Below are positions 24,290-63,049 of a stretch of DNA of 64,000 bases, piece by piece. Each line of letters starts with the position of its first letter. The first letter of the stretch is position 1. Position numbers and translations under genes: made by a program. The notes under the pieces were generated by a model, which saw only the letters and a list, made by a program, of their open reading frames with translations, was not told the DNA's origin and did no database searches. The stretch is from Thelephora terrestris (lineage: Eukaryota > Basidiomycota > Agaricomycetes > Thelephorales > Thelephoraceae). The stretch spans positions 186,001 through 250,000 of the forward strand of contig WIUZ02000023.1 of the NCBI GenBank assembly GCA_015956445.1, given 5' to 3'.

Positions 24290-24294
24290 GAAAT

Positions 24295-41723: not shown

Positions 41724-41782
41724 GCAGGCCCACAACCCTGACATCTTTCTTTCCCTTAATCACCACCTCCAGCAACGGACGC

Positions 41783-43204: not shown

Positions 43205-43221
43205 TGGAGCCCACGGCGAGG
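43205..43221 (+). other. Putative primer-binding site
   Basis: TGGAGCCCACGGCGAGG lies two bases after the LTR end. It starts with TGG, complementary to a tRNA CCA end. The priming tRNA was not identified. Confidence 0.55.
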
Positions 43222-43309
43222 GGCTTCAATAAAACACCATCTTATCACCACAAACACCATTCCCACCATCACACCTTCATCACCCTCCATCTCCTCTACA
43301 TCAACCAAC

Positions 43310-46300
43310 ATGACTTATATCTCAGATACAGAAAACGAACAACATCCCTTCAATGGAGTTGAAGACCTCCTTACTCAATCAAATTCCTACTTGGAATTAC
43401 CAGCCCCCAACAAATCACGTGCACCAGAAACCTTCACAGGAGCCGCCAATACCTTGGAGCCCTTCTTGGAGAATTATAACCACCTATGCAACCGCTATGA
43501 CGTCACCTCATCAAAGGAAAAGTACCAAGGACTCATTCGATACTGTAGCCCTGGAATCGCTAACCTGCTGCGAACTTGGCCTTCCCATGCCAAAAGGGAC
43601 TATGGAACTCTATTGGTTGAGCTCGATTACTTCTTTGGGGACAAGCAAGGATCCCTGAATGTGGGAAAAATTGAAGCCTTCACTACCAAATGGAGAAAAC
43701 GTCGAATGGACACCCTTGACAGATTCAAGAAATATCAAATCAAATTCCATCAGTTGGTAGGACGTGCCAGAGAAATGAGGAAGATCTCCACTAGAGATGT
43801 CAATAGATATTTCTGGGAAGGATTGAATGCCTCTTTCAGGCGACAAGTTGAAGCCCAGATGAGGATGGTCACGCCTCACTTAGATGTGACAGTGCCATTC
43901 AGCATTGCAGACATAGTAGAAGGAGCTGATTCAGTCCTTAACCCTTATAGGTTTGATAAGCACCTGGCAACTAAAGGCGGATACCAGTCCTCTGAAGAAG
44001 AAGAGTCAGACCAAGAGGAATCCACTAAGCCATTTAAGCTCTCAGGATATAACTCAGAAGACGAATCAGATGATGAACCAAAGCCTCTTATCCAACACAA
44101 GTCACCCCTGACTCCACCTAAATCTCCTCCTAAGTTACCCACAAAGACCAAGAAGCACAAAGGAAGGCAGGATGAAGACTTCAACCAGCTAGTGGATGAC
44201 CTGAGTAACCTCAAGATTGATGACCCCAAGTACTGGGTCAAATATGTACACTTTGCTCAGCAGTACCCACATCTCCAGAATTACGTAGAACCTCCTCCTA
44301 ACCGAAACTCAGCAAGACCAAATCAACCTAGAAGACCATTCCAGAGGGATCTACCACCTCATCAGAACTTTGGCAACCAACAATTCACCAACCCCCAGTC
44401 ACGACAAGGACCAAATCCCTCCTATCGACCACCTTTCAATCCATCACCCCAGAGAATGTCTCAACCCCCTCCTCAAAGTTTCTCTATGGCAACAGGCCCC
44501 AACGCAATCGGACAGAACTACACCTGTTTTGGTTGTGGACAGCAAGGTCACCACATTAGGGCATGTGAGGAAATAAACAAATTGGTAAAAGCTGGGAAGA
44601 TAGTAAAGGACCCAACGTCAGGACGGTTACAGTGGCCTGACAACTCAAGAATCTACCGAGCACCTAATGAGACATGGATACAAGCTATTACTAAACATGT
44701 TGCAGCTGAAGTCCATTATGCTGAAGCCTTGCCATACAACCCTACTTTGGAAACTGCATGTAACTACATAGGAGTGGATAGGTATGAAGACGATGCTGAT
44801 ACTGATGAACAAGAAGCGGAATTAGGATGGACCTCTGGGGAGGTAGAACACTGTCAAGCTTTTGGTGTTGAAAGGACCACCCAAATCAGCAAGGAACACA
44901 GGAAGAAGGTACAGCAAGTCTTACCTAGCCGACCCCAAGGGATGGAGAAGCTCCCCAGGAGCAGGGAAGCAAAGAGTCCTGGTAGGCCACAGCACCCAAT
45001 CAAGAATCACGTCAATCTTAACAGCAACCAGACGGGGAACATCCGGTCTGCCTCTAACCCCAACAAGGGCGTAATTAAAGGTAAAACGGACAACCAGTTG
45101 CTTCCAATGGAGGTTGACCAGGAGGTCACTGCAAAGCCTACTAACTACAATAGGAAGGACTCGGCGCATTTGGAGCAAACCAATGGTCCCAAAGTCACTA
45201 ATCCCAGGACTACCAAGAAGCCAGACAGTTCAGCAATTGCCACTAAAATACTAAACACCAACATTACCCTAACTGTACAGGAAGCAATCGATGCTGCGCC
45301 TTCTTTGCGACGAGGCCTTGTGAGCGCAATGAAACAAGGGCATGAGGTCTCTGTCCCAATGCAGCAGAAAATTGGCCTCCTCGCCGAGGTGATTGAGAAG
45401 GAGGAACAGCAACCATTTCAAGCTGTAGTCCAGGAACAATCAGAAGATGAAGAAGACTATGATCAAGAAGATGAAACAGACCTTGTGGAGCCTACAGTAA
45501 CAGTGCCCAGGGATGGATTGATCAAGATACCAGTCAATGTGGCAGGGACTATGATGACTGGAGTCTTTGACAGTGGATCCCAACTCAACATTGTTAATCA
45601 AAGGTTAATAGAAGCAGCAGGCATACCTTGGTCCAACGCCGAGGAACACAGGATTCCGATGATGTCAGTTGACGGAAATCTCTCCCAATGTGCAGGAATG
45701 ATACCTTGTGCAGAGATGACAATGAAGACTACAAAAGGAAGAGTTATGGCACCCGGAAATCTCTACGTAAAGAAGAATGCAGGATTTCAGCTACTGCTTG
45801 GAAGAGAATGGGGTGTTGACCATAAAGCCACTTGGATAGAAGATGGTAGGAATTCTCATCTGAGAATTATTACCAATAAAGGTTGGCGAAAAATTAGACC
45901 CCTTCCCTCTACATATGGATCTCGGGACAATGAAGAAGACAACAGGAATTTTAGGTATCAATCAAAGGATTATCAAGCAAGAGTATATGCAGTAGGAGGA
46001 AATAAAGAAATTGAAGAAGGCGAGATACCGGACAGCGAGGAAGAAGAAGGAAGCCTCGTGATCGGAAGTAATATGGCCGACGTCGAAACGGAAGCCCTGG
46101 AGGAAAGAGAAAATGATTTTATTTACTCACCAGTAACGATCGCGAGAGAAGACCCACCGACGCCCGCGCAACGACGCGAAGCGCTAGTGCTTGATGAAGA
46201 CGACAGAAGAAGCGAGACAGACGATGAAATCGGACGGATCGGGACGGAAGAAGATCTACGGAAGCCGGAGGAAACACGCGCGGAAAAGGAGACGGAAGAA

Positions 46301-47218
46301 TATTCGGATGAGGATATAAATGGATGGTCGAACGAAAATATTATTAGTTCGGACCTATACGAAACTTATATTAAAATGGTCCGGAAAGGAGCTTCCGACG
46401 AGGAATGGAACGCGCTGTGCGAACTCGAACGAAAGAAGGCCGCGTGCGACCAGAAGCCGTGGACAAGGCTATGTAGTGAAGACTTGGAGAATGAAGACAG
46501 GGCCGCAAAAAACGACCCTGCCCCACACGAAGCCGAACTATCTACGCGACCCCACCCGGAAAGCCCTCAACCCTCTCAAACTCTCGCTACCCCTGAACCA
46601 GATCCGCCCTCAACCCTACCAACCTCCAGGAAGCGAAGATGGAGCCTGAAGGAAGAAGATCAGTCCACCATCGCCAAGGTAACGCGAATGCGACGGACAA
46701 GAAAACTTACAGAAAAGGCCCAAGGAGACGAGTTCCGAAGGTACTTGCAAACGTTCGAGCGGCAGGATCAGAAGCAGGTCAAAGGCCGTAAACGACCAGT
46801 GGTTGTGGAAGCCTGTGCATTTGCGACGGAAGCAGTACCAGGTAACCGGCATGCAGACCTAGATAGCGCAGACAATGAGTTGGAAAATGAGTGGGAAAGA
46901 GAATTCAATAAGACCGCACTTACCAATGTGGAGAAAATTCTAGAACCGAGCAGAATGGACATGGATGGGTCAGACGACCTGGAATCTAGCCCGAATAGCC
47001 CTGGTGGGCCAGACGAAGAAGACGACGAAAGGTCTAATCAACAAAAAATTACCGATCACGGAAACACAAAAACGACATATCCGAACTTACTGACACAAGA
47101 AACGTATGGAGACCGATGGGAATGGAAAGAGATGGGTCAAACGACCCAGGATCCAGTCCGAATAACCTCGAAGGACCCAGCATTGACGAAGAAGAAAGTT
47201 CTGTGGAATCCAGGTTAA
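43310..47218 (+). CDS. Gag with zinc knuckle and aspartic protease, gypsy element (1302 aa)
   Basis: Residues ~37-210 form a retrotransposon Gag core (PETFTGAANTLEPFLENYNH; FWEGLNASFRRQVEAQM). A Pro/Gln-rich linker follows, then one zinc knuckle, CFGCGQQGHHIRAC (~residue 406). A retropepsin-like protease follows near residue 753 (GVFDSGSQLNIVNQRL, later LLLGREWGVDH). After it comes a long acidic, low-complexity extension. The frame ends in a tandem repeat (DGSDDLESSPNS ... TDHG) that continues in the -1 frame in the next ORF. Gag and protease in one ORF separate from pol is known in fungi, but the acidic extension is unusually long. Expected role: particle formation and polyprotein cleavage in the cytoplasm. 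Confidence 0.87.
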   Translation: MTYISDTENEQHPFNGVEDLLTQSNSYLELPAPNKSRAPETFTGAANTLEPFLENYNHLCNRYDVTSSKEKYQGLIRYCSPGIANLLRTWPSHAKRDYGTLLVELDYFFGDKQGSLNVGKIEAFTTKWRKRRMDTLDRFKKYQIKFHQLVGRAREMRKISTRDVNRYFWEGLNASFRRQVEAQMRMVTPHLDVTVPFSIADIVEGADSVLNPYRFDKHLATKGGYQSSEEEESDQEESTKPFKLSGYNSEDESDDEPKPLIQHKSPLTPPKSPPKLPTKTKKHKGRQDEDFNQLVDDLSNLKIDDPKYWVKYVHFAQQYPHLQNYVEPPPNRNSARPNQPRRPFQRDLPPHQNFGNQQFTNPQSRQGPNPSYRPPFNPSPQRMSQPPPQSFSMATGPNAIGQNYTCFGCGQQGHHIRACEEINKLVKAGKIVKDPTSGRLQWPDNSRIYRAPNETWIQAITKHVAAEVHYAEALPYNPTLETACNYIGVDRYEDDADTDEQEAELGWTSGEVEHCQAFGVERTTQISKEHRKKVQQVLPSRPQGMEKLPRSREAKSPGRPQHPIKNHVNLNSNQTGNIRSASNPNKGVIKGKTDNQLLPMEVDQEVTAKPTNYNRKDSAHLEQTNGPKVTNPRTTKKPDSSAIATKILNTNITLTVQEAIDAAPSLRRGLVSAMKQGHEVSVPMQQKIGLLAEVIEKEEQQPFQAVVQEQSEDEEDYDQEDETDLVEPTVTVPRDGLIKIPVNVAGTMMTGVFDSGSQLNIVNQRLIEAAGIPWSNAEEHRIPMMSVDGNLSQCAGMIPCAEMTMKTTKGRVMAPGNLYVKKNAGFQLLLGREWGVDHKATWIEDGRNSHLRIITNKGWRKIRPLPSTYGSRDNEEDNRNFRYQSKDYQARVYAVGGNKEIEEGEIPDSEEEEGSLVIGSNMADVETEALEERENDFIYSPVTIAREDPPTPAQRREALVLDEDDRRSETDDEIGRIGTEEDLRKPEETRAEKETEEYSDEDINGWSNENIISSDLYETYIKMVRKGASDEEWNALCELERKKAACDQKPWTRLCSEDLENEDRAAKNDPAPHEAELSTRPHPESPQPSQTLATPEPDPPSTLPTSRKRRWSLKEEDQSTIAKVTRMRRTRKLTEKAQGDEFRRYLQTFERQDQKQVKGRKRPVVVEACAFATEAVPGNRHADLDSADNELENEWEREFNKTALTNVEKILEPSRMDMDGSDDLESSPNSPGGPDEEDDERSNQQKITDHGNTKTTYPNLLTQETYGDRWEWKEMGQTTQDPVRITSKDPALTKKKVLWNPG

Positions 47219-47420
47219 CCGATCACGGAAAACATGAAGAAAACATATCAGAACTTACCATGCAATACGGGAAACTTGAGACAATTCAAGAAGAATGGAA
47301 CAGGTCAGACGACCCAGGATCCAGGCCAAATAGATTTGAGGAATCAAGCACGGACGAAGAAGACGAGAATGAAGAACAGTGGTTACCCGATCACGGAAAA
47401 CACAGGTCCAACATATCGAG
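46950..47420 (+). repeat. ~160-bp coding tandem repeat spanning the ORF1/ORF2 junction
   Basis: Three diverged copies (about 46958-47090, 47125-47270 and 47305-47420) encode SDDxxSSPN...TDHG-K...ISEL-like peptides. Copy 1 starts in the ORF1 frame. At CACGGAAACACA (about 47058-47069) it lacks one A relative to the matching CACGGAAAACATG of copy 2, and beyond that the homologous peptide (NDISEL) appears in the ORF2 frame. Confidence 0.75.
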
Positions 47421-49728
47421 ACTTTTCCCGAGAAGATACACATCAGCAGAAAACAACGGCCCTAACGACAAATACAAACGGCCCACCCTGGATAAAGGAA
47501 AAGTAGCGCACGAACCCGTAGAAGAATGGGAACCTTACCAAGCAGGGACGAAAGAAGATAACAAGAAGCCAAGAAGGCGCCAGGCACCGAATGACACAAC
47601 GTTCGGAACCGGCAGTCAATCATTACCCGGAGGTAACCATGCCGTGTATGGGGAACAATACCGACAAGACCCGCGGGAAGCTGGATTGGACATTCTGCGC
47701 GAATATCCGGATGCGTTTAATTACGATCCAGACAATAACAACATAGAACAAACATACGTACCGGAACCGTCGGAACCTGCAGTGCCGAAAAAGCGGATAA
47801 GGGTCTTCGGCTCAGAATTCAAGAGCAAAACACCCGAGGACAACGAAGTAATGTGGAATGTAATGGAGCAGGATGAGTTGGAAGGAGTGCTAGATGAATT
47901 GAGTAGGGACCCGATGGTCGCGAATGAAGAAATAAGAACTTACACAATCAGTAAATCGGATGACGGAACAATCGAAGTCCGACGCGGGCTACCTGCGAAG
48001 AATGGAGGTAACGGGCCCTCAACCCAGGATCCAGAGAAATCTAACCAAGGAAAGGAGGATAAAGAAGTCAGTGACACCAACGAGGAAACGAAGAAAGCAG
48101 AAGAAGAAACACTTACCGAATTAGGAAGTGACCCACAGACTTCCGATCACGCGTCTGAGTCTGAGGTCCACATGGGACGGAAAAAGGGCTCGGAAACGAG
48201 CACAACCGGTGGAGACCCTGTAGAAACCTTTGTACACCTGGAAAAGGATAGGACCACCCAGGAAATAAAATTATTAGGAGCACCAGAAGGTATAAAAGAG
48301 GTCGAACGCACCTTGGACAAAATATCACCAAAACTCAAAGATCAACCCCAAGATTCAGCCAAGACGGAGCCCACCTCGAATGGTGAGTGTTGTTGTGGTT
48401 GTAGGAAGTGTCCTGCAGCTAACAATCCTCAACAGCAGTCCCGAAACGACCCTCGAAGGGTAGTCAGCCTAGTCCGACCAAGTCTGAACCACGACTTACC
48501 AGGGCAAGGCGACCACCAAATGGAAGAGGTAATGGACGTCGAAATCCCATCTCCAGAAAACCAAGTTCCCGGACTGTTAGCGGCGGCCCACCTCGTCCAG
48601 TTAGAAGAGAGTATGTTACCCCCCGGAGATCACTCGTTCTTCGCGTTCGGCGCAACGCTACTAGGAGGCGAAGGCCCCTCCCAATATGTACGCCAGGGAC
48701 AAGCCTATGTCCGCCTTTACGCCTCAAGCTCGGCCAACCTCAATGAACCGCCGAGGCCACCGCCAACGTCCCGCGTAGCTAACGCGCATGTCCAAGTCTT
48801 CGCGTCAAATGCGCCAGCCGGACCGGAGCCCCAAGAAAACTTAGCAGTTCCCCGCAATACCCCCTTTCACGATCAGTCCGTTACCCACAATGTTATCTTA
48901 CCTGATTCAGCGCCGCCGTACAGGTTCCCGAGCGTACCAGTCGAGGACAAAGCCGATGAACCGATGACCGTGGACAGCGTCCTAGACAAGTTACGAGACG
49001 TCGAAGGAAGTGTCGACCCCACAAAGAAGTCCATCAAAGAAGCTCCCGATCTGGGGAAATTGAGTAAGCGATCAACTGGTATATCCCAAAATCGCGAGAT
49101 AACGAAAAATGACTTAGCTTTGGGAGAGCCCGAGCCACCTTTGCCCAATCAGAACGAAAAGACCACCTCGGATGTCCACGTAGCAAGGTCGTTTGCGGCC
49201 GGAATAATCCAGGCAAGTGACATGTCTAAAAATCCAGAAAACCGACATATGAGTACATTGAATCCGCAGGTCGATATCGAAGAACCCGGAAACCCACCTA
49301 TTGCAGTTCTAGATCCCTCTATGGATCTCGCCCCAGATTCTCCACCAATGCTATACTACCCGGACGACATCGAAACCGACGAACTCTCCGAAGATCACGA
49401 GAAACTGCCGGACGCCAAGGATCACCAAGCAGAACTCAAGGCATGGTCAAGATTGTACCCTGCTACCTTTGATTCCCCGCCCGAGGAACCGCCCTCGTCA
49501 CCCGTAGAAAACGAGCAGGCTCTGGAGCGAATTCAAGCAAATCTAAGTTTTTTAGCACCATACCTCGAACGCCTCCAGAACCGGAAGAATCGCCGTGAAG
49601 TCCTCGAGTGCCTAGGCGAACTCGGACTCCTCCAGTTGACGTACGAGATGACAAAGGACAACCTGGAGGGAGTTCAGCAAAAACGCGAATACTGGGGAGG
49701 AGAAATAGGGAAAGTTCTGTTCAACTGA
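47116..49728 (+). CDS. Gag-extension ORF2 of the gypsy element (870 aa)
   Basis: Acidic, low-complexity protein overlapping ORF1 by 103 nt in the -1 frame. It starts inside the shared tandem repeat. The middle has Pro/Ser/Glu-rich stretches and a small cysteine cluster (GECCCGCRKC, near residue 424). The C-terminus is helical (ALERIQANLSFLAPYLERLQ). It ends at a TGA (49726-49728), and the same frame stays open to 50610. No enzyme motif was seen. Best read as the second part of one very large Gag-like polyprotein, or a separate protein made by frameshifting. The ATG at 47116 is simply the first in this frame and may not be used. Confidence 0.6.
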   Translation: MGMERDGSNDPGSSPNNLEGPSIDEEESSVESRLTDHGKHEENISELTMQYGKLETIQEEWNRSDDPGSRPNRFEESSTDEEDENEEQWLPDHGKHRSNISRLFPRRYTSAENNGPNDKYKRPTLDKGKVAHEPVEEWEPYQAGTKEDNKKPRRRQAPNDTTFGTGSQSLPGGNHAVYGEQYRQDPREAGLDILREYPDAFNYDPDNNNIEQTYVPEPSEPAVPKKRIRVFGSEFKSKTPEDNEVMWNVMEQDELEGVLDELSRDPMVANEEIRTYTISKSDDGTIEVRRGLPAKNGGNGPSTQDPEKSNQGKEDKEVSDTNEETKKAEEETLTELGSDPQTSDHASESEVHMGRKKGSETSTTGGDPVETFVHLEKDRTTQEIKLLGAPEGIKEVERTLDKISPKLKDQPQDSAKTEPTSNGECCCGCRKCPAANNPQQQSRNDPRRVVSLVRPSLNHDLPGQGDHQMEEVMDVEIPSPENQVPGLLAAAHLVQLEESMLPPGDHSFFAFGATLLGGEGPSQYVRQGQAYVRLYASSSANLNEPPRPPPTSRVANAHVQVFASNAPAGPEPQENLAVPRNTPFHDQSVTHNVILPDSAPPYRFPSVPVEDKADEPMTVDSVLDKLRDVEGSVDPTKKSIKEAPDLGKLSKRSTGISQNREITKNDLALGEPEPPLPNQNEKTTSDVHVARSFAAGIIQASDMSKNPENRHMSTLNPQVDIEEPGNPPIAVLDPSMDLAPDSPPMLYYPDDIETDELSEDHEKLPDAKDHQAELKAWSRLYPATFDSPPEEPPSSPVENEQALERIQANLSFLAPYLERLQNRKNRREVLECLGELGLLQLTYEMTKDNLEGVQQKREYWGGEIGKVLFN

Positions 49729-50610
49729 AGGGAACACATCGCAACTTACCTTGAAGCGAAGCGCCGTGAAGAAGCCCTGAAACCGGCCACGTCCGACCCC
49801 CTGATCAAGGAAGAATCACCCGAAGTACTCTCGAAAACTCTGGGTAATCATTTTGCCGAGATTACGTCTAACGTACCAAAGGTTCAGCAAATCGCGCCCG
49901 CACCCGGACCCGGATTTGACGACCTTGAGGACGTCAAGCAGCAGATTGTGGTACTCGAAGAAAGAATTGAGGGAACGACAAGCGATTTAACGACCCGGTT
50001 GAGGGAGCTCGAAAATCAGGTATACACAGACGGATGTTTACTCACCGAACTCAACTGGAAGTCGAACGAGTTGAAGAAGCAGGAGAACAGAGTCCGGGCC
50101 GATAAGAAGAGGTCCTGGAAGAACAATCCGAGGGCAAACCACCGCTATGAGACCCGGTCCGTAACTGCGAACTCAAACGAAAGAGCAAACGAGGTACGGA
50201 AGCAGCTGTCACAATTGACAGATCAGATCAGAGCGCTCGAAGTCAAAGTCGAGACCCTGCGCGTCGAATTGAGATCTGTCAAAGATAAGCTCGATCAAGT
50301 TCTGGCGCTAGAATTCGAAGTCAAGAAGCTCGCCAAAACCGTTGAGGATCAGCGCAAGGCTCAAGGCGACATGAACAGTGTCCTAATGTCAGAGATCGCG
50401 TCCCTCAAGTTCGCCATCGGACCCAGCGTAGAACACCAACTCAAGCAACACGGCCTCGAAATTACCGCCCTCACCACTCGTTACCAGCAACTCTATCAAG
50501 TCGCCCTTCACCTTCTTTACCCGGACAACGCCGCCAACTCGAACGCAAGCTACGCCACCCATGCAAACCACCCTTCCTATGTTAACAATAAATCCGTCGG
50601 CGTTTTCTAA
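49729..50610 (+). CDS. Coiled-coil C-terminal part of the gypsy Gag extension
   Basis: In the same frame as ORF2 after its TGA: 293 residues from REHIATYLEAKRREEALKP to NKSVGVF. The first internal ATG is 49948. Strong heptad pattern from about 49930 to 50480 (QQIVVLEERIEGTTSDLTTR; LTDQIRALEVKVETLRVELR). Either it is read through from ORF2, or expressed from 49948, or it is a decayed tail. The coiled coil would suit multimerisation. Confidence 0.6.
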   Translation, partial: REHIATYLEAKRREEALKPATSDPLIKEESPEVLSKTLGNHFAEITSNVPKVQQIAPAPGPGFDDLEDVKQQIVVLEERIEGTTSDLTTRLRELENQVYTDGCLLTELNWKSNELKKQENRVRADKKRSWKNNPRANHRYETRSVTANSNERANEVRKQLSQLTDQIRALEVKVETLRVELRSVKDKLDQVLALEFEVKKLAKTVEDQRKAQGDMNSVLMSEIASLKFAIGPSVEHQLKQHGLEITALTTRYQQLYQVALHLLYPDNAANSNASYATHANHPSYVNNKSVGVF

Positions 50611-52159
50611 AGTAAGAACGAACTCGTAATCTCCCAGCCCCCTCTCTGACGTTTTCATTATCGCGCGCGCCATCAAAACACTTATTCTAATCTCAGTCAC
50701 CCGGATCGGATTCGGTCAAACCTTTGATCCGAACTCCGGTTCCTGAACCCGTCTTCCGCTGGTAAGCGAAAAGTCTTTCACTCCGCTCCCCACATCCCTC
50801 ACCTTTCTCCTTCCTGCCCTCCACTATCTCTCTCTTCCCCCCTCGGAACCTGGCGAACCGACTGGCCGTCCAACTCTGCATCGTTTGCTGCCCTCCGCTC
50901 GACCTCACGTTCGCTCGTTTATTCCCGGTACCCACCTCGCGTCGACCGTGTCACGCCTCAAACGCACCTTGCCTCTCGTCCTTCAACACCTCCGCCTTTA
51001 CCCCTGTTGCCCTCAAAACTCTCTTTCCTCAATCTACGGATCCCGACCTACAATTTCCGACCCTTTTCACGCCAAACGGCCGCCTCCAACAGCAGCAATC
51101 CCTCTCTCCTTTCTCTCTCTCTCATCTTTGCCTACTCCCCTTCCCTTTCTCTCTCCTCCCTCTCTAAGCTCGCCGCTTCGCGCAAATCGGCACCCTCTCA
51201 GTCCCAGGTCTCCCCAACATCTTGAAGTCTAGCAAAAATTTGGAGGGACAATGGGTTTCTGCTGAGTAGATCTTGCCTGTTTTCTATACCCTCTCCCTTT
51301 CTCTCTCTCGTCCCTCACCCTGTTTCAAATTGCCTCTCGCGTATATTCTGACGTCTATTACTTTCCTCCTAGCCTCGTCCTGACAAGCAGCGAGCCTCTC
51401 CCCTTTCCCCGGACTCACTAACCTCCGCGACGTCAAGACTCGTTGCCTCTCAAGACCTCCTTCCTCTCTCTCGACCAGCCGAGTTCTGCGAACTCGCGCC
51501 TCAAGACCGTCTCCTCCGCCCTCTTCCTTCCATCGACCCCACCTTATCTTCTCACCGCCCGTATACGCCGCCCACTCTTTCCATATACCTCGAGCGTTCA
51601 CTTCCCTCCCGACTTTATTTTTCCTTCCCACCTACTTCCCCACTCCCACTTCCGGTCTCAAGCGTCCCTGCCGGACCTTTTTTTTTTGGATTGATAGTTT
51701 ACTTGCTATCTACCCGTACCCAATCAGAGACTTTAGTTAGTTCCCTCTAACTTCGCCTGATCAGTGAACAGCCCCGCAATTCGTTGGTAAGTTTTTCTCC
51801 TCTGAAAAACTTGCGAACCGGTGAACTTTGTCTTCAAAAAGTTCCCCGCGGTTGTGCGTCGTCTGGTAACTCCACTCCGAAAAAAGTTCCCCGCGGCCTC
51901 GTTCTTATTCCTCCCCATTTTTTTTCCTCGATCTCGATTTTTCCGCCTTCTCCCTGGCATATTCTTTCCCTCAATCAATTTTTTCCCACGACTGCTACAC
52001 CCTCCGATCAACTCGCCGTTTCCTCAATTTCTGTTTAAATTCGCTTGTTCTCTCCCTCAATTAAATTAGACTACATCCCTCCCACCCACCCTTTATTTTC
52101 CCTCCCCCCCCTGCGCTTTATATCTTTTTTTTTTCTTCTCTTTCTTTTTTTTCCGTTCA
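50611..52159 (+). other. CT-rich leader between the gag region and pol
   Basis: About 1.5 kb of pyrimidine-rich DNA with no supported gene. It includes AAAAGTTCCCCGCGG twice (around 51838-51852 and 51883-51897), a motif also found directly before the 3' LTR (58638-58653). It separates pol from gag by far more than frameshifting could bridge, so pol needs its own RNA (splicing or an internal promoter) or internal initiation. Confidence 0.6.
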
Positions 52160-52213
52160 TTGTGGGTACCTGTTGGTACAGGTGATTTTATAGAAAAAAT
52201 TATTAGAGTCACC

Positions 52214-55200
52214 ATGACCCACAAGTTCGCAAAACCAGTACTTCCCAGAAAGAAGGTATGGGTCAAACCTATATCTTCTCTACCAATTATCCCTTCAATA
52301 AATATTCCCTCCGACTTCCCATTGCAATTAGCCCAGGACATGAGTTCTGGTGAAGATGACTCTAACCCAGACTTTGAAGATAGCCTACCTGACCTACTAA
52401 CTCAGGAAGATGATTCTGACCTGGAATCTGATCCACCCTCCGACTACCATCAAAAACCCTGTGCTGTCTTCAAATACAAGAAGGTCAGCCAGAAAGTCCG
52501 ACCAGTTGCCATACAGATCCCAGAACACCAAAAACCTCAACGACAAATCCCAGGTAATCCCCTACAAAACCTCCCTATCCTACCCCATCATCCCTCAAAC
52601 TTTATCCCTACCACCAAGATCACCGCTGAACGAATGGATGAACTAGCCATAGACAAGCACGATGAATTGTGGCCTGAGGAACGGAAGCTACTACAACAGG
52701 TCCTCTGCCTAAACGAAAGAAGCATTGCTTTTGATGAAAGTGAAAGAGGAACCTTCCGTAATGACTATTTCTCAGACTACGTAATTCCGACTATTGAACA
52801 TGAACCCTGGATTGAGAAGAACATCCCTCTAGCCCAAAGCAAATATGACCAGATTATTAGCCTTCTCAAGGAAAAGGTTAAGGCTGGAGTGTATGAAAGA
52901 GCTCACACAGTCTACAGATCCAGATGGTTTTCAGTTCTGAAGAAGGATGGCAGTTTACGTCTTGTTCATGACCTCCAACGCCTTAATGGAATAACCATCA
53001 GAGATTCAGCAGTTCCTCCTATTATAGAAGAATTCGTGGAAGCCTATGCCGGACGAAGTGTTTATACTGTCCTAGACATGTATTGGGGTTTCCATGCAAG
53101 AGTATTGGATGTCCACAGTAGAGACTTGACCGCTTTCCACACCCCTTTAGGATCTTTCAGATTAACCTCATTACCCATGGGATATGTCAATGCTCCGGCG
53201 GAATTCCAAGCTTGTATGATGTTCATTCTACAAGACGAAATTCCAGACAAAGCAGGTGTATTCATTGACGACATTCCAATCAAAGGACCACCAACCAAGT
53301 ACCAAGGACCTGATGGTAAGGAAGAAACCATCCCAGAGAACCCAGGAATCAGACGATATATATGGGAACACCTTAATGACGTTAACAGAATCCTTCATAG
53401 GATAGGAGAAGCAGGTGGAACCATTTCAGCCAAGAAGATGCAGCTTTGCCAAGCCGAAGTAGAAATTGTTGGACACAAGTGCAGTGCCAAGGGACGTCAA
53501 CCAGTAGACAACCGTACCAAGAAAATTGAATCCTGGCCAGTACCTATTAACCTAAAGGAGGTTAGAGGATTCCTTGGTCTATGTGGAACTGTCCGGATTT
53601 GGATAGAAAATTTCAGCCTAATTGCCAAACCTTTGGTACATCTGTCCCGAAAAGGAGTAGATTTCACTTGGGGACCAGAACAGCAAGAAGCTTTTGATTG
53701 TCTCAAGAAAGAAGTATCCAAGGCCCCAGCGCTACGATCAATTGACTATACCAGTGACAAGCCAATCATATTATCTGTAGACACCAGCGAATACGGAATT
53801 GGAATGATACTTTCCCAGGAAGATGAAAACGGACGACGTGCTCCAGCCAGATATGGATCTATTCCTTTAACAGGATATAGTCTAAAGTATGGACAGTCAA
53901 AGTTAGAACTCTATGGATTATTCCGTGCCCTCCACAGATATAGAGCCCATATATCTGGTGTCAAGAATTTGATTGTGGAAGTTGACGCTTCAAGTATACG
54001 AGGAATGTTAGCACACCCAGACACCCTGCCAGCGGTATTGAACCGATGGATAAATGGAATCCAGCAGTTTACCTTCAAGCTAGTACATGTTCCAGCTCAC
54101 AGACACAAGGGACCAGACGCTTTATCTAGGAGAAGACATGCCACAGATGAAGAAGATGACGACCCTGAATCAGATGCAGAAGAATGGATCGACAGTTTGG
54201 TACTAGCAAGTGAAGTCCACAACCCTCCTCAAACATCAAGACCCTCCTTCATAACCCCTATACCCTCCTTTTCCCCAGCTCACACCCTTCCCCTCCCCAA
54301 CTTAGGTGATAACACCTTCCTAGACGACAATATGAAATACTCGTATGCAGTTGCCACCACCCATCAATACTCCAACCAGGACCTTGACAACATTCTCAGG
54401 TACCTAGTCACCAAGGAAACGCCCAAGTTCAGAACAACCAAGCAAAAGAAGTTGTTCCTCAGCAAAGCCAGACCTTTCTACCTGAAAGGGGCCCATATGT
54501 ACAAGCAACGTCCAGGAAAACCTCCTCAAGTAGTAATCTTCTCAGCAGAACGACAGAAGGAAATTCTATGGGAAGCTCATGAAGACATAGCCCATCACGG
54601 AGTCTGGGCAGTGGAGCAACACCTTACACTACGATATTACTGGCCTGGTATGAAAGATCAGATCAAGGAACACGTACGCAGTTGTCACACCTGTCAAATC
54701 AGAAGTACCAAGAAGATGCACATCCCAGTCACAATTTCCCACCCCCCAAGCCTGTTCAGTAAAGTACATGTGGACGTTATGAGCATGCCTCACGCAAAAG
54801 GAAAACGATGGCTCATCAGTTGTAGGGATGACCTTTCCGGAGTCACAGAATGCAAAGCTATAGCAAGAGATAAGGCCAAAGTCATGGCTCGCTTTTTCCT
54901 CAAGAAGATTATCCTCCGTTATGGGATAGTTCAGGAAGTAGTAACAGACAATGGACCCTCATTTGGGAAGGAATTCTCTGATCTTCTCCAGAAGTATGGA
55001 ATCCGTCACATCAAAATTTCTCCCTATAACTCCCAAGCCAATGGAGCAGTAGAACGTGGACACTATAACATCCGTGAAGCCCTAGTAAAGTTATGCAAAG
55101 GAGACCTATCCAAATGGCCTCTCTTTGTTCAAGCAGCTAACTATGCTGATCGAATCACGGTTCGAAAAGCGACAGGATATAGCCCATACTACTTGTTACA

Positions 55201-55759
55201 CGGAGTCCATCCCTTGTTACCAGGAGACCTCACTGATGCCACGTTTCTAGTAACAGACTTCAAACCAGGAATGACCAGAGATGAACTAGTACAAGCCAGA
55301 GCACGTCAGCTCTTAAGACTCCCAGAAGACATGGCTAGAGCACGCAGAATTCTTAAAAAGTCTAGATTCCAATCAAAGAAGGCTTATGAGAAGAAGTTCG
55401 CTAGACGAATAAGGAAAAAGTCGTATCAGTCAGATGACTTGGTCCTAGTACACAACAATCGGATTGAGAATAGTGTGTCTATCGAAAGGAAGACAGCCGA
55501 CAGATACATGGGACCATACCGCATTGGGAGACAAACCCAAGGAGGATCATACGTCCTTGAAGAAATGGATGGCAGTGAACTATTGGACCACGTAGCTGCC
55601 TATAGATTGATCCCTTATGTACAAAGACAAAACCTAGACCAATGGGCAGATCGGATTATGGAAGATAACGGAAACGACAGTGATATCTCCCAGGAACCAT
55701 CAGATGACAGTAACCAGGAAGCAACCCAAGACTCTGATTCGGATTCATCTGCTCATTAG
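52214..55759 (+). CDS. Pol of the gypsy element: reverse transcriptase, RNase H, integrase
   Basis: The first ATG of the open frame is 52214 (MTHKFAKPVLPRKK); the frame itself is open from further upstream. RT blocks: SRWFSVLKKDGSLRLVHDLQ, LTSLPMGYVNAPAEFQ and VFIDDIPIKG, with FIDD as the catalytic box (Y/F-x-D-D). RNase H: SVDTSEYGIGMILSQED, KLELYGLFRALH, VEVDASSIRGM. Integrase: zinc-binding H-H-C-C (HEDIAHHG ... CHTCQ), then catalytic Asp in HVDVMSMPHAKGKRW, VTDNGPSFGKEF and Glu in SQANGAVERGHYNIREAL. A GPYRIG block follows, and the C-terminus is acidic. Protease is absent here and lies in ORF1. The frame is intact, so the enzyme may be active: cytoplasmic cDNA synthesis and nuclear integration. 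Confidence 0.93.
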   Translation: MTHKFAKPVLPRKKVWVKPISSLPIIPSINIPSDFPLQLAQDMSSGEDDSNPDFEDSLPDLLTQEDDSDLESDPPSDYHQKPCAVFKYKKVSQKVRPVAIQIPEHQKPQRQIPGNPLQNLPILPHHPSNFIPTTKITAERMDELAIDKHDELWPEERKLLQQVLCLNERSIAFDESERGTFRNDYFSDYVIPTIEHEPWIEKNIPLAQSKYDQIISLLKEKVKAGVYERAHTVYRSRWFSVLKKDGSLRLVHDLQRLNGITIRDSAVPPIIEEFVEAYAGRSVYTVLDMYWGFHARVLDVHSRDLTAFHTPLGSFRLTSLPMGYVNAPAEFQACMMFILQDEIPDKAGVFIDDIPIKGPPTKYQGPDGKEETIPENPGIRRYIWEHLNDVNRILHRIGEAGGTISAKKMQLCQAEVEIVGHKCSAKGRQPVDNRTKKIESWPVPINLKEVRGFLGLCGTVRIWIENFSLIAKPLVHLSRKGVDFTWGPEQQEAFDCLKKEVSKAPALRSIDYTSDKPIILSVDTSEYGIGMILSQEDENGRRAPARYGSIPLTGYSLKYGQSKLELYGLFRALHRYRAHISGVKNLIVEVDASSIRGMLAHPDTLPAVLNRWINGIQQFTFKLVHVPAHRHKGPDALSRRRHATDEEDDDPESDAEEWIDSLVLASEVHNPPQTSRPSFITPIPSFSPAHTLPLPNLGDNTFLDDNMKYSYAVATTHQYSNQDLDNILRYLVTKETPKFRTTKQKKLFLSKARPFYLKGAHMYKQRPGKPPQVVIFSAERQKEILWEAHEDIAHHGVWAVEQHLTLRYYWPGMKDQIKEHVRSCHTCQIRSTKKMHIPVTISHPPSLFSKVHVDVMSMPHAKGKRWLISCRDDLSGVTECKAIARDKAKVMARFFLKKIILRYGIVQEVVTDNGPSFGKEFSDLLQKYGIRHIKISPYNSQANGAVERGHYNIREALVKLCKGDLSKWPLFVQAANYADRITVRKATGYSPYYLLHGVHPLLPGDLTDATFLVTDFKPGMTRDELVQARARQLLRLPEDMARARRILKKSRFQSKKAYEKKFARRIRKKSYQSDDLVLVHNNRIENSVSIERKTADRYMGPYRIGRQTQGGSYVLEEMDGSELLDHVAAYRLIPYVQRQNLDQWADRIMEDNGNDSDISQEPSDDSNQEATQDSDSDSSAH

Positions 55760-56218: not shown

Positions 56219-56506
56219 ATGTCCACCAAGACCCTCCGTCGTTCCCAATCAATCCTTGCTTTTCCCACCAAAGCCGACTTCCAAACGGAAAAGGAACTCC
56301 TCAAACACTATTACGAGAATAAGGACGCCCGCCTCGCCCTACTCCAGGCTGTCCGACAAGAGCAAGGCAACACGGAGGCCATCGTTTATTTTAGACACCA
56401 TCTCCTCCATTATCCTATCACAATCTACCCCAATACGTCCGAAGACTATATAGAGGAACTATTCGAATACCAGCTGTCTATACTTGACCCGTGGTCATAC
56501 ATCTAG
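56219..56506 (+). CDS. Accessory protein A1 of the gypsy element (95 aa)
   Basis: Starts MSTKTLRRSQSILAFPTKAD. It shares a core pattern with A2-A4: a helix with N-K/Q-x-A-R (ENKDARLALLQAVRQ), a hydrophobic strand ending in His (AIVYFRHHLLHYPITIYP), then S-E/D-x-(Y/F)-I-E-x-(L/I)-(F/I) (TSEDYIEELFEYQL). No intron. Lies between pol and the 3' LTR, same strand. Function unknown; no transmembrane segment or signal peptide. Confidence 0.68.
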   Translation: MSTKTLRRSQSILAFPTKADFQTEKELLKHYYENKDARLALLQAVRQEQGNTEAIVYFRHHLLHYPITIYPNTSEDYIEELFEYQLSILDPWSYI

Positions 56507-56767
56507 ATGTATAGTCGGTAACCCTCCTCTATCTAGATACAAAACTGCTCCTCCATTAAATCTATGCGTATATCCCACCATGTTAACGCCATCAAAAGAA
56601 CGATCAAATTAAAATGGAGGAACGATGAGTTGTCATCATGATGACTCAATATATCGGCCAACCACGAACGCCACGTCACAACGAAACAACCTCTCACAAC
56701 TTTCGTCTTTGTGGCCGCCTTTCATATTCCAACTCAGCGCACCCAGAAAACCTACACATCGGAAATC

Positions 56768-57203
56768 ATGGGAGTAAAATTGGTTTACTACGTTCAAGAT
56801 CCCAAAACACATCAATGGGAACTAGCGTAAGCTCTACGCTATGCACAACTTTTTAACACTCTGACCTCAAATCGGCCCCAGTATCAACCCTACCCCGCCA
56901 AGCTCAGACGAGTACCACCGATATGACACTGTACCTCTCATCGATTACATGGGACAGGGCTGGAAGACTGACGTCGAAGCCCTGGAATACTTAAAGACCA
57001 AGAAGAGCGCCCGAAAACTGATCTCACGTCAAGCTTGGACTTACATGTATCAAGGAGCAGGAGTAATGTACATCGTCCACCCCCTTTTCGAGGTACCCCT
57101 AGTCCTTGGCCCCCATGACAGCGAGGAAAGTATATTACGCAAGGTTACTATACGGCTGGATACTTTAAAGAGGGTAGCAGACAAGTACTCTGGGAACGTT
57201 TAA
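56768..57203 (+). CDS. Accessory protein A2 of the gypsy element (126 aa, one intron)
   Basis: Exons 56768-56826 and 56882-57203, with a 55-nt GTAAGC...CCCCAG intron. N-terminus MGVKLVYYVQDPKTHQWELA, then LIDYMGQGWKTDVEALEYLK, the core helix KKSARKLISRQAW, strand MYIVHPLFEVPLVLGP and HDSEESILRKVTIRL. It is clearly paralogous to A3 (the N-terminal xxDPxTxQW and D-Y-M-G-x-x-W blocks and the same intron position), which supports both gene models. Function unknown. Confidence 0.75.
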
Positions 57204-57606
57204 TTACCCTATGTACGGTATTCCCTACCTTGCCACCCCTATGTTTACGACGCCCCATTATTCCCTTCCCCTTCGTTCGTTCAACCAAGGAATAAACGAA
57301 CTTTTCATCATTCATACATTTCATCATCTCATCATGGGACTTCCGATGATGACACCCTTCTCCAGTTCACCAAGGCATCAAACTTTATTTTAGTATATCA
57401 CAATGTTTCGATCGAGACCCTGGTGCCTCCTTCTTTTCGGCACCGGATCATTACTTATTACGTATATGGCTCCCTTCTTCCCCACGTTTAATATTTGTCA
57501 TTCGCATTGCTTCACCAGCGTGTTCCTCTCGCTTTCCTTTCTCTTTCTCCCTTCCCCTAGTTCTTATCCCCCCCCCAGAACACTGCTTACTCTACGGTGT
57601 ACCCTC

Positions 57607-58027
57607 ATGGACACGCAACACTGCTTTATTTTAGACCCCTGCACCCGCCAATGGAAAAGCACGTACGCTCGTTTTCTTACGTATTTTTTATCAAGATTTT
57701 TGACACGCGCTCAGCCTTTCCTGGGAAACGCCCTGGAAGGTACACCACCACCCCTATTTCTACGAAGAAATCCTTGTAGTCGACTACATGGGATTAAACT
57801 GGGCAACCCCCAAAGACGTCCTCGAATACCTCCAGCAAAACCAGAGCGCCAGACGCCTCCTCCGAAGAATATCTGAAGACGTCCTGCTCACAGGATGGGA
57901 CACTACCTACATTGTCCACCCCCTCCTTAACCCACCATTATGCCTCAATACTTACCTCAGCGACGACGAGTTCATAGAATTAATTAATAATAGGCTAGCC
58001 ACCGAACAACGAGTCCGCGCTGGTTAG
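57607..58027 (+). CDS. Accessory protein A3 of the gypsy element (122 aa, one intron)
   Basis: Exons 57607-57662 and 57715-58027, with a 52-nt GTACGC...CTCAG intron. N-terminus MDTQHCFILDPCTRQWKST, then VVDYMGLNWATPKDVLEYLQ, core helix NQSARRLLRRIS, strand TTYIVHPLLNPPLCLNTYLS and DDEFIELINNRLA. The intron falls at the equivalent position and phase to that in A2, showing that A2 and A3 arose by duplication after intron gain. Function unknown. Confidence 0.75.
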
Positions 58028-58260
58028 GAATCATGCACATGTACTTCGCCTCACCTAACCCACCATGTTGATGACGTCGTGAGAAAAAGCTCACCCAAAT
58101 AAGGAAAGACGGACACACCAACTGTTATAACCAAAATCGGCGTCTCAACATGATTGGACCCACAGACACAAACAAATTGACGTGATGGCAACCGAGTCTG
58201 CCAGCACATCGCCTTCAAACAGCAAAACCATCTCACTATCACATCCCACCTCTCTTCCAC

Positions 58261-58581
58261 ATGCAAATCATCCACTACCACGTAAATCCACAAGGACTAG
58301 ATACGTATTGGACAACCGCCCTCGAGCTCTACTGCTATCTATATACCAACAAAAGCGAACGCACCCGTTTACGAACAATGGTCGACCAGTTAGGAAACCA
58401 CAATAACCGAATATTCATCATTCATCATCGCTGCGCTCCCTGGACCATATGCCTTGTGATGGGACAAACCGACGAGTCATTTGTACAGCACATTGAATGT
58501 CTCCTCCAAGGCGTGGGATTTGTAATCCCCCAAGACTATTCCATTCAAGGTATTTCAGCCACTTTATGTGCATTATCATAA
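58261..58581 (+). CDS. Accessory protein A4 of the gypsy element (106 aa)
   Basis: Starts MQIIHYHVNPQGLDTYWTTA, echoing the aromatic N-terminus of A2 and A3. Core: LYTNKSERTRLRTMVDQLG, strand NRIFIIHHRCAPWTICLVMG and TDESFVQHIECLLQG. Intronless. It ends 73 bp before the 3' LTR. Most diverged of the A2-A4 set, but the same order of elements is visible. Function unknown. Confidence 0.68.
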   Translation: MQIIHYHVNPQGLDTYWTTALELYCYLYTNKSERTRLRTMVDQLGNHNNRIFIIHHRCAPWTICLVMGQTDESFVQHIECLLQGVGFVIPQDYSIQGISATLCALS

Positions 58582-58654
58582 ATAAAGTCAGTATTGTTCT
58601 AGACTAGTTGGGATAATTGCGATCAGGGACGATCGTTTAAAAGTTCCCCGCGGA

Positions 58655-59785
58655 TGTCGGACATGAGAACAACCATGTCATTATTTATGATAATTCACCA
58701 CAACAAGATTAGATTAGATAAGATAACAGTCTTATCAGATAAGATTAGATTAGATAAGGACAAGAAACTCATGGAAAGTTACAGAAAGTTACAGAAAGTT
58801 CAGGAACATCCTAGAATACGCCGGAACATCCTGGAACTTGCCGGAATGTTCTAGAAGGTGACGGAACGTCACACCCCATGTGACACCGGTCACGCTTTTG
58901 TGACATTTTGTCACGCTTGTGACGTCTGTCACTCCATTAATTACCATAGAATACAGTAGAAGGCCATAGAACGTTCTAGAATAATCTCACATGAAAAAGT
59001 ATATAAAGAACTCACCCCCAGTTCTAAGGAAAGGCAACTCACCCATAACCTTTTACCCCTCTCTCTCTCTACCCAACAGCTGTTGGCCACTGGCCAGTAG
59101 TTGTCCCCTCTATCCCCTCTTCTCTCTATAACCCACCCTCTTTTACTCTACCCCTTTTCACCAAGACCCCTACTTTGCCTCACCTCCTTAGGCCTGAGTG
59201 GTTGAGTGATTTTCAGTAATCACATACCATTTTGAGCCCCACCTCTGTGTGAATAAGTTCTAAGTTTGGACTTCTGAATAAGCTTAGTACACTTGACTCT
59301 GTGACGTAGCAATATCCTTATCTCTGTTAGTGCTGAAGGCAGACCCTTCAGGCAGAGAGTATTCTACCTCAGACTAGTGACTGACTAGGTGACAGACAGA
59401 TTTAGTAATAGTACCACATTGGTATCCGACGTATCAGTATCTCAGACATATCAAGAAGTTTATCTTATCAAGACAGGTCCTCAAGTTTCAGCAGTATCAA
59501 GTTATCAGACGTATCTCAGCAGCATTTGGACGTACCTCAGCAGTATATTGACAGATCATCAAAACTACTCAGACATATCAGCACAGCCTCAGAAGTATTA
59601 GCACAGCCACCCCCTTAACACAGCCACAGCACAGCCACTTACACAACCACAGTGCACAGCATTCTACACAGCCTTCTTCACAGCCTCATACACAGCCTCG
59701 ATCGTATCAGTTTCACACATCATTATCTCCATTCCCGATCATCAGCATAGATCAGAAACTCCATTCTTATCAAGATCAGCAACCC
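58655..59785 (+). repeat. 3' LTR of the gypsy element, truncated
   Basis: Equals 41783-42913 with no length difference; every stretch compared was identical. The last ~289 bp of the LTR are missing because F1 copy 2 starts at 59786. No purine tract stands directly before the LTR; the preceding bases are AAAGTTCCCCGCGGA. Confidence 0.85.
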
Positions 59786-62700
59786 TGTCAGGGCCACTCT
59801 ACCCTAACAACTACCAGTGCACTGAGCCGACTCCGCAGAGTACTCACTAGTCCAACTAGTTTGTGAGAGAACGATCACGTCTCTATTCTTCCGGTAGGTT
59901 GTCCGAGGTCACTACAAGTCAGGTCGAAATCCTAAAGAGAAACCCAACCTAAACCGTACTTCGTTCGGTTTAACAAGCAAGGGTTTATCCCTACAACAGG
60001 ATTGATGACTCCACCAGTTGATCGACTGGACGCTCGAGGTGTTCTAATATGACTGCTGGGAGTCTATAGTTACGAGGCGCAGTTGACGCGCAGAGCGGGA
60101 GGGAGAGCAGATGGGGGTGTCTTGGATCAAACAAGAAACTCTGACTTGTCCTTAACTGCAACTGGGCTGAGAAGGGCAGAGGATTTCCTGAGGTAACAAA
60201 ACTAAGGTACTACGATACAGCCACAGTTGCTACTTATACTAAAGGAGTGGCCATGACGTCAATACCCTAATATACCCTTATCAAGCCAGAACAAAGGGAG
60301 ATAAGGAGTGTGAGAACGCTAAGTAAGGGAAGCGAACAAAGGTGACGCGTGGGAGAATAAAAGACAAAGGGCCTTACTAGCGTGTGAAGGATTGCATAAA
60401 AGATAAGAAATGTCCGCATGAAACATAGGGGTAAAGATAACACTAGTCCAAATGGAAATAGGAGCATGGGGTCGTGAAAGTTCGTACCTGGGGATCTCAC
60501 CCAAGGGCCAGGTGTCAATCTCCCTTTACATGGCCTCTGCCAGCTGGATTCGGGAGTAGAGACATTCAACATCCCTTGTTGTCTGTAGGCGGTAACAGCA
60601 TCACAGACAAGTGGCAACCTCAACGTACGTCCGAACATGAGGAGGTCGGGCCTAGACTCATGGGACATGAGGGATTACAGATTCGCCGGCGTTTCACGCT
60701 AACGGCTACTCCACATGCGCTGGGCTAACCAGAAGGATCCTAAGGCGATACTTCCGAATAACGGCGAGTCCTTCCTCCGGTTAGGAGACTGTGATGTGAC
60801 TGTCCACGTGTGTGATCAGGGTCCAGGGTTGTTCGTAATCGTAAAGTCATGAGGGGTCGTAAAAAGGGGTTCGTGATGTCATAAAGGAGTCATCAGGGTC
60901 TTGAGACCTAATTTTAGTGCGCGCGCGTTCTAGGCGTTCCGGAACGAAGTTCTTCCAAGGCCGTCCCGCGGGCCGAGGTGTCAGCTTGATGTAGTAAGCC
61001 AACGATGATGGTACAGGGGCGGAAGTTGATGTGACCCGGACCAATGAGGTTCGTCGAGGTAGGTCACGTGAAGGATCACCGATCTAGGCTATAAGAAGGA
61101 CGTCTTCTTGGAGCCATCCTTGATCAGCAACACCAGCAACTTCCCCATTATCTTACCAAAACATGTCCTTCCCCAACAACCATACCTACAAAGTCGCCAA
61201 TGGTATCTCCACCATCTCTCGCATCGATCGTCGTGCCGCCGCTCGCAAGTCTTACGCCTGTGCGGCTGGGACTCCCTATACCACGGATGACCAGGTATGG
61301 GGGAGAGCTAGAGCTTTCTGTGCTAGCACTAACGCTTCCTCTAGGTAGAGGAACGTTCTTTTGGGCGTTGATGTCCAGCTAACGGCTTCTAGATCTTGGA
61401 GGTCGTCACGGAGGTGGACGCCGAACGTCTCAGGGAGACGATGCCTCATTTGATGGGGTTGACCTGGGACGATGAGCTCTGGGTCCGCACGATTATCGCT
61501 GAGAAGGTAGCCTTCCGAATGAGGGGTAGGTTCGGGGAGCTGGAGCATCCGGTCAAGAAGGAGCTCTGGTACACCCTGCAGAGGGGAATCTACGATCAGG
61601 ACCTATTGGAGCATGGAGCAACCGTTCCTCGAGCCGTCCGCCAGGCCACTGTTGCCACGTCATTGTTATGGTCGCTCGTTCGGGAGGGGGAGAGCAAGGT
61701 AGGTTCTCCGTTTGAATATTCGAGTATGACTCTCGATTAATCAAACTGCCTAGGTTGAGCGTTTGGAGCGCGAGGTGAAGGAGGCGAAAGCAGACGTCCT
61801 TCGTCTATCAGCCGAGGGTCTTCAATTGAAGGAGACCTTGGCCGCCTTCCAACAGGGGACAAACGAGGCGTTAGAGGCAATGGTCGCCAACCATCAAGAG
61901 TTGATCGCCGGGTTGAAGGTTAGGGATAACAACATTAAGGGGGCGTTGGCTAGAAGGGATGAAAAGGTAATGCCGCTTTCATCATTGCTTAAAATGATGG
62001 AAGCTGACATTTCCTAGACTGAAGAACTCGAGAACGTAGTGGCAGTATTGACGGCGCAGGTCGAGTCCTTGCAGGACAAGACCTGTAACTGCAAGGAGGG
62101 TCCCAAATTGGTTGGTCAGGGGACCGCCGATGTTCCATTCGAGCTGGAGTACGCCGACGAGGTGGTACTCCCATCGCCTAATCCATCGTCTTATGCGACG
62201 CCTCCGATCGAGAACGCGGTTCCCGTTCCGACACCAGGTCCGGCTTCCACCTTGGCCGCTTCCGACAAGGAGAACTGTGGGCGCTGCGTCTTGCAGCCGA
62301 TCCATCAGTTGGTGAAGATCGAGGATGAGGTCATGGAGGTTGACCGAGCTGAAGATGCTCCGAGGGTCGCCGAGGTACGTCCGGTGACTAAGGGGCAACG
62401 TTGCAAGCGCTCTCGACGCCGTCCTGCTCATTGCATGGTTCCGTCGGCTAATCCCTATCCTCGACCAGTTGAGTCGGATGGTGACCAGTCTGGTCGAGGT
62501 GGAGGACGAGAGTTCCGCCATCGGGTCCACCGTCCCTACCGACAGGTCGAGTCGGAGATCCAGCTTCGCCACCAGCTACGACTCGCAAGACAGGATCCCA
62601 CCCAGGGGTCCGACGAGGGAGACGGAGGGTCGCTTGCCGACTACGTCGATAGTGCTGTCGAGCAGTCACCCAGTGATGGCGATGTGGGACCAGGTGTTCC

Positions 62701-63049
62701 AGAGTTCAGTGACATCTGGGAGGCTGATCGGTCCGCTCGAAGGAGTCTCTTCCTATCGGCTTGAACTAATCGTTCAGCTGAGTGCCGAAGATGGCGACGC
62801 CATGTTCGGGGAGGTTCTTGCCAGGAGGGGCCAGCACTACGATCTCCGGGATGGACGTTTGGTGACCTTCAGGCCTGCCGTAGATAGAGTCGACTTTTGA
62901 TGGGGTTAGGATAGCACTTGTATAGCTCGTTGTGGCTTCGCGGGGAATAGTACGCGCGTGTGTGTGTTTCGAATGATCAGCTGTGGTGGTCCATATCGTT
63001 AATTTCAACCTGATAAGTGGGTGATACAGTTGTTTCATACAGCCTGACA
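59786..63049 (+). mobile_element. F1 copy 2: gene-bearing LTR-like element
   Basis: Starts TGTCAGGGCCACTC and ends CAGCCTGACA, 3264 bp, close to copy 1 and in inverse orientation to it. No target duplication: the left flank is the broken LTR (AACCC) and the right flank is GCATG. So either the LTR remainder was deleted after insertion or the junction arose by recombination between elements. Confidence 0.78.
61163..62764 (+). CDS. F1 coiled-coil protein, copy 2
   Basis: Exons 61163-61294, 61393-61698, 61754-61966 and 62018-62764 (465 residues), exactly the exon lengths of copy 1. A TATA-like CTATAAGAAGG at about 61088 precedes it by 75 bp. Blocks as in copy 1: MSFPNNHTYKVANGISTISR, HLMGLTWDDELWVRTIIAEK, coiled coil, FELEYADEVVLPSPNP. 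Differences from copy 1 are mostly conservative or synonymous, and no stop is present. Function unknown. Confidence 0.74.

Follow-up and report, generated by a model that had tools for sequence, protein, structure and literature searches.

Thelephora terrestris is host to a giant Ty3/gypsy retrotransposon of about 18 kb that carries four small sense-strand genes between pol and its 3' LTR. These genes, A1 to A4, occupy 56219-58581 of the window (a stretch of 64,000 nucleotides, C16:186001-250000), where the original prediction had placed them. Sequence and model comparisons identify them as paralogues, codon comparisons indicate that they are under selection, the predicted introns of two of them are conserved, and the array is retained at loci from which pol is missing. 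In the genome (40.6 Mb in 60 contigs), a search with A4 gave 30 matches at 29 loci, of which 15 belong to copies of the window's own type (one, on C43, in two pieces) and 14 to a related family (39-43% identity). Each of the 29 has an element LTR downstream or, no more than about 6 kb away, the pol of one or other family; one of them, L018 at C1:160 kb, is a decayed remnant. In both sets of loci the frames lie between pol and the 3' LTR and are kept as coding frames in most copies.

The element spans 41783 to at least 59785 on the forward strand. Its 5' LTR (41783-43202, TGTCGG...CGACA) is assigned a full length of 1420 bp because in other copies the 3' LTR matches as far as 43202. The first 1131 bp of it are identical to 58655-59785, which is all that the window holds of the 3' LTR; the repeat is cut at 59785 and the remaining 289 bp were not found in the 1.6 kb at and beyond the window end. 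The primer-binding site TGGAGCCCACGGCGAGGG (43205-43222, forward strand) is the complement of a tRNA gene's 3' end with CCA added. By eye this gene (L034 1427-1514) reads as Lys(UUU) with an intron, and the ARAGORN output for it is 'tRNA-Stop tta'. The 14-base pattern of the site occurs at 33 places in the genome, and one of the eight places scanned is a tRNA gene. A tRNA-Lys primer is also used by lentiviruses. The LTR pair and primer-binding site are accompanied by a 4-bp target duplication, CCGA, seen for the C56 copy only. The pol gene (52214-55759, forward strand) matches Pfam RVT_1, RT_RNaseH, RT_RNaseH_2, Integrase_H2C2 and rve, and its domain order of reverse transcriptase, RNase H and integrase is that of Ty3/gypsy elements (Metaviridae).

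Upstream of pol, the ORF1 region (43310-50610, forward strand) consists of two overlapping frames. The first (43310-47215) reads by eye as a Gag with a CCHC knuckle and a protease with DSGSQ, and has no Pfam match. The second (47038-50607) is a coiled-coil extension that is interrupted in the window copy by a TGA at 49726 and is open over 1199 codons at C1:4565485 and 1163 codons at C56. The similar lengths in these two window-type copies suggest that the frame overlap is normal for the type, with a possible frameshift site at the overlap. The pol-less C23 copy has a single open ORF1 frame of 2397 codons, and the frame that holds the ORF1 tail ranges from 293 to 1549 codons in window-type copies and reaches 2653 in the related family. 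ORF1 and pol are separated by a pyrimidine-rich spacer (50611-52213, forward strand). It contains two copies of AAAAGTTCCCCGCGG (51837-51851 and 51882-51896), and a third lies directly 5' of the 3' LTR (58639-58653). Its core, GTTCCCCGCGG, is present in 23 of the 31 loci fetched, and AAAAGTTCCCCGCGG may serve as a second start of plus-strand synthesis or as a packaging signal. A block before the pol start (52099-52185) is partly conserved: one copy of the related family (L021) and a pol-less copy (L016) match it at 82-83%. It combines a tract of pyrimidines with a CAG and an inverted repeat, ACCTGT-TGGT-ACAGGT, recognized by eye. At the other end, about 62 bp adjoining the 3' LTR (58599-58662, forward strand) are 92-97% identical between both element families, against about 76% for the nearest other DNA that matches between them (58198-58340).

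Several other repeats and frames were seen in the window. An inverted pair, 59785-62977 and 21090-24290, is 91.9% identical, and one arm starts where the 3' LTR is cut. A direct pair, 25159-27469 and 39434-41744, is 83.9% identical, and its second copy stops 39 bp before the 5' LTR. A second inverted pair, 581-1873 and 11080-12216, is 93-97% identical, and 27625-30050 is densely filled with copies of a short repeat in both direct and inverted orientation. Of two further frames, one is a DUF6589 frame (35327-36376, reverse strand, E 9e-52) and the other a frame for a helicase C-terminal domain (18985-20385, forward strand).

All four accessory genes are read on the forward strand. A1 (56219-56506, 95 aa) and A4 (58261-58581, 106 aa) are intronless. 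A2 (56768-57203, 126 aa) is joined from exons 56768-56826 and 56882-57203 across a predicted phase-2 intron of 55 nt (56827-56881), and A3 (57607-58027, 122 aa) from exons 57607-57662 and 57715-58027 across a predicted phase-2 intron of 52 nt (57663-57714). The two introns do share position and phase as had been proposed. The array had also been called a tandem family of small intron-bearing genes, which is borne out for the tandem family, found in two element families and under purifying selection, but not for introns outside A2 and A3. Splicing is needed to read through both of these frames, and an NCBI protein (BJ322DRAFT_1103921, P0018) equals the spliced A2 product with one difference in 126 residues. 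The predicted intron is kept in all 14 A2 and all 14 A3 copies, with a displaced A2 acceptor in the broken L009, and the A2/3-type gene of the related family has the same phase-2 intron at eight of eight fetched loci, where two acceptors are possible. Not one of these 36 intron copies has been lost. Three other NCBI models (P0022, P0023 and P0024) fuse A1 or a variant A1 to A2 just 5' of the A2 start; they are provisionally treated as annotation artefacts because they use three different donors. Comparison of the upstream regions for shared 9-mers yielded scattered matches only, and a motif scan placed bZIP-like sites 5' of A2 and A4 and none 5' of pol or A3, so no common promoter is claimed.

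The paralogy of A1 to A4 is apparent in pairwise, profile and structural comparisons. BLASTP connects A1 with A3 (4e-4), A3 with A4 (8e-5) and A1 with A4 (6e-3), and tblastn connects A3 with the A2 exon (38% over 85 aa, 3e-15). Comparison of profiles from three separately aligned groups gave P values of 4e-13 for A1 against A2/3, 2e-6 for A1 against A4 and 5e-6 for A2/3 against A4; the significant similarity on which the original prediction depended is thus present. AlphaFold models of A4 (pLDDT 84, pTM 0.75) and of the exon-2 part of A3 (pLDDT 88, pTM 0.75) have one common helix-helix-strand-strand-helix core and depict a soluble alpha/beta protein. Their agreement is not fully independent, because the input alignments mixed all groups. 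The similarity is beyond chance. The motifs by which the genes were first grouped (a helix with N-K-x-A-R, a hydrophobic strand ending near His/Pro, and S/D-E-x-F-I-x-x-I) need correction: an alignment of 31 sequences has one invariant residue, a His around the first strand of the core, besides one T and one R that are nearly invariant. None of the 31 members matched a Pfam family at E ≤ 0.001; the best match was RRM_PARP14_3 (E 0.0058), and where a cut-off was printed the score was 17.1 bits against a gathering cut-off of 24. PDB and fold comparison of the accessory proteins returned no match. The PD-(D/E)XK nuclease superfamily was compared as a candidate; its catalytic D...(D/E)xK motif is absent, and the 31 aligned members share an invariant His and no acidic triad.

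A tree of 20 rows splits off A1, A2/3 and A4 by one branch each (support 84/84, 82/71 and 100/99, of which only the last is strong). These branches suggest that the three paralogues are most likely older than the split of the two element families. The ancestral set was thus most likely three genes (A1, A2/3 and A4), and A2 and A3 most likely arose by a later duplication in the window's lineage. The original prediction of a four-gene family therefore describes the window and needs correction for the ancestor. The related family, with pol 72-79% identical among the candidates scored, retains three orthologous genes: an A1-type gene, an A2/3-type gene with the same intron and an A4-type gene. The pol search scored 39 of 227 candidates and another candidate listing 40 of 146, and counts from both are lower bounds. 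In a more distant family (pol 41-43% identical, at least four loci), no accessory copy follows pol within 4.5-5 kb, so A1 to A4 are not required for gypsy transposition in general. T. terrestris is the only named organism among the matches of the protein searches.

Most sister copies keep the frames: all four are open at 9 of the 15 window-type loci. Four of these nine have pol (the window, both C59 loci and C2:1518k) and five do not (C23, C3, C2:472k, C56 and C1:4509k). C60 has a rearranged set whose frames appear open, and in each of the other five loci at least one gene is interrupted by a stop or frameshift. Purifying selection on A1 to A4 is clear as judged from codon comparisons. Pooled dN/dS among window-type copies is 0.42 for A1 (9 copies; codon-bootstrap 95% range 0.23-0.71), 0.11 for A2 exon 2 (13 copies; 0.03-0.24), 0.27 for A3 exon 2 (13 copies; 0.14-0.53) and 0.32 for A4 (12 copies; 0.22-0.46), while the other two frames give 0.73-2.05. 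These values omit broken or misaligned sequences (L009 for all genes, L015 for A3 and L013 for A4) and keep L006, L007 and L015, which have in-frame stops, with the stop codon skipped. Variable columns number 68, 43 and 118 at the three codon positions, a third-position excess with p 5e-9. In an alignment of the window with seven copies (the window-type loci minus broken, interrupted or A1-variant copies), the 1359 coding nt are free of gap columns, and the 107 intron nt contain 8 columns with a gap or insertion. Accessory alleles are shuffled between copies, to judge from synonymous divergence. The A4 alleles are visibly mosaic, and L004 and L005 differ from the window by a dS of 0.014 in A3 and 0.40-0.42 in A4, while L006 has the reverse pattern (0.22 in A3, 0.03 in A4).

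Pol was detected at seven of the 15 window-type loci (C16, two on C59, two on C2, C7 and C43), uninterrupted in three and broken or partial in four. The other eight loci have no detected pol and have kept the accessory array. The interval from gag to A1 was covered completely for five of these (C23, C60, C5 and two on C1) and in part for C56, C3 and C2:472k. In C56, C5 and the two C1 loci, pol is gone between 52237 and 55819 with an identical junction, and all four have a variant A1 that at its start resembles the A1 of the related family. The deletion is thought not to be a reverse-transcribed splice product, the junction being without GT-AG by eye. In C23, C3, C2:472k and C60 there is no pol match upstream of the array. 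C23, C3 and C2:472k have an additional A3-like remnant 5' of A1, the ORF1 tail of C23, C3 and C60 is only 48% identical, and A1 to A4 are about 97% identical in C23 and C3. Pieces of ORF1 lie upstream of the accessory genes at seven of the eight pol-less loci; none was found in the part of the interval read at C2:472k. At C56 the two LTRs agree at 1366 of 1366 positions and all four accessory genes are open. The identical LTRs and the CCGA duplication indicate a recent move of this pol-less element, for which Pol was presumably provided in trans.

We propose that A1 to A4 are element-encoded accessory proteins of this lineage, which would have arisen within it as tandem duplicates of a single small, soluble domain with the helix-helix-strand-strand-helix core. 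Short mRNAs probably encode them, those of A2 and A3 being spliced, while the genomic RNA that is reverse transcribed would retain both introns. Splicing of the copied RNA should remove introns from a retrotransposon. Since none of the 36 has been lost, the copied RNA evidently escapes splicing. In retroviruses, unspliced RNA is secured by viral RNA structure or by an element-encoded factor. Unspliced copied RNA and the persistence of the array in the absence of pol make a role at the RNA/Gag stage our first choice: the proteins would keep genomic RNA unspliced, export it or package it with Gag, acting mainly on the RNA that encodes them, as do Rev, Rec and CERV. Taken as a whole, this account, with its duplication, predicted splicing and RNA/Gag-stage role, is put forward as somewhat short of an even chance. 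Several observations weigh against the RNA/Gag role. The proteins have no known RNA-binding fold and are not strongly basic (pI 5.4-7.9), the distant loci have no such genes in the stretch after pol, and 6 of the 15 loci are without a full open set of the window type. The array at pol-less loci may partly reflect recent common descent and recombination with pol-bearing copies, as the mosaic A4 alleles illustrate. The ORF1-tail frame varies over the 293-1549 codons given above, so that an intact partner Gag is not established for each pol-less copy.

A different function would be to counter fungal genome defence, such as RNA silencing, methylation or another restriction factor, with duplication and allele shuffling tracking the host. 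Vif-type and VANC-type accessory proteins counter host defence. Evolution far faster than that of pol and a variable gene number make such a role nearly as likely as one at the RNA/Gag stage. Between the families, pol is 72-79% identical, against 39-43% for A4, 29-31% for A3 and its counterpart and 27-29% for A1, and copies differ in gene number, order and alleles (the A2/A3 duplication, the A1 variant and the A4 haplotypes). However, the dN/dS values, all below 0.5, give no sign of positive selection, pol-less copies need not keep an antagonist that acts in trans, and no known fold was matched. On balance we consider defence antagonism a serious candidate that is nonetheless unlikely to be the answer.

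The accessory proteins could instead be particle components that play a minor structural part beside the very large Gag. The ORF1 pieces found 5' of the array at seven of eight pol-less loci and the 2397-codon frame of C23 would fit this. The ORF1 tail has changed (48% identity in C23, C3 and C60) beside nearly unchanged A1 to A4 (about 97% in C23 and C3), which argues against tight co-evolution, and we hold this reading improbable. It is more doubtful still, and in our judgement very improbable, that the array consists of captured host genes or chance open frames. Introns of host type and the lack of known relatives invite this view, yet all 29 A4 loci are tied to an element LTR or to pol of the two families, and neither Pfam nor protein searches gave a host gene family. 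Capture was rejected because no host copy was seen, and chance frames were ruled out by the dN/dS values, the profile-profile similarity and the third-position excess (p 5e-9). Env genes or env remnants are suggested by the position between pol and the 3' LTR only, and we give them next to no credence, since A1 to A4 (95-126 aa, below fusion-glycoprotein size, with soluble A4 and A3 models) contain no transmembrane segment (best 19-residue Kyte-Doolittle mean 1.41) and are thus not a retroviral or errantiviral Env.

The array has parallels in several known systems. Complex retroviruses carry several small genes near the 3' end (the Rev/Tat/Vif class), some with an intron. The array resembles these in position, size and introns; it differs in that A1 to A4 are mutually paralogous and have no visible relation to them in sequence or fold, and any likeness in function would be by analogy. 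LTR elements are usually described with two ORFs, gag and pol, and the relevant passages of a survey of fungal LTR elements describe gag, pol and, in some elements, extra inserted domains, with no such family mentioned there (PMC3248453). The Cer1 element of Caenorhabditis elegans encodes CERV, which is translated from a spliced mRNA and is required for export of the genomic RNA (PMC10309623). Cer1 thus also combines an extra protein and a spliced mRNA (predicted for the present element) with a genomic RNA that must remain unspliced. CERV as described there is large, with three structured domains, whereas A1 to A4 form a tandem family of 95-126 aa for which an export role is drawn from analogy. 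Bdelloid rotifer ORF3s, which include enzymes and a fusion protein, likewise occupy the env position and are exchanged between elements as modules, as far as that account goes (PMC5408684), but the present genes are duplicates of an orphan domain. Plant LTR retrotransposons can likewise carry further ORFs in the stretch from pol to the 3' LTR, and one antisense case is recorded in the fungal gypsy element Boty of Botrytis (PMC7264820). The ORFs treated in that source are Env-like sense or antisense frames, in contrast to the three or four sense paralogues with conserved introns and no membrane segment found here. The claim of novelty in the original prediction is therefore to be narrowed: extra ORFs 3' of pol were known, and what appears new is a fungal element with a sense-strand family of tandem paralogues, some with introns, for which no precedent was found among the matches listed and in the open-licence literature, a result that is not proof. 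The pol-less loci that retain the accessory array, one of them recently moved, are new here.

It is conceivable, although we hold it unlikely, that the lineage has independently evolved a regulatory layer like that of complex retroviruses, in which duplicated small proteins of an unmatched fold, some of them from spliced mRNAs, would prevent splicing of the genomic RNA and deliver it to Gag in cis; Gag and the array would then be indispensable even to derivatives that discard pol. The finding itself is of a fungal LTR element in which selection maintains three to four duplicated accessory genes, whose introns survive retrotransposition, and of non-autonomous copies that have lost pol and kept the array. 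It makes a role for accessory proteins without Env, and the escape of an intron-bearing genomic RNA from splicing, testable in an ectomycorrhizal fungus.
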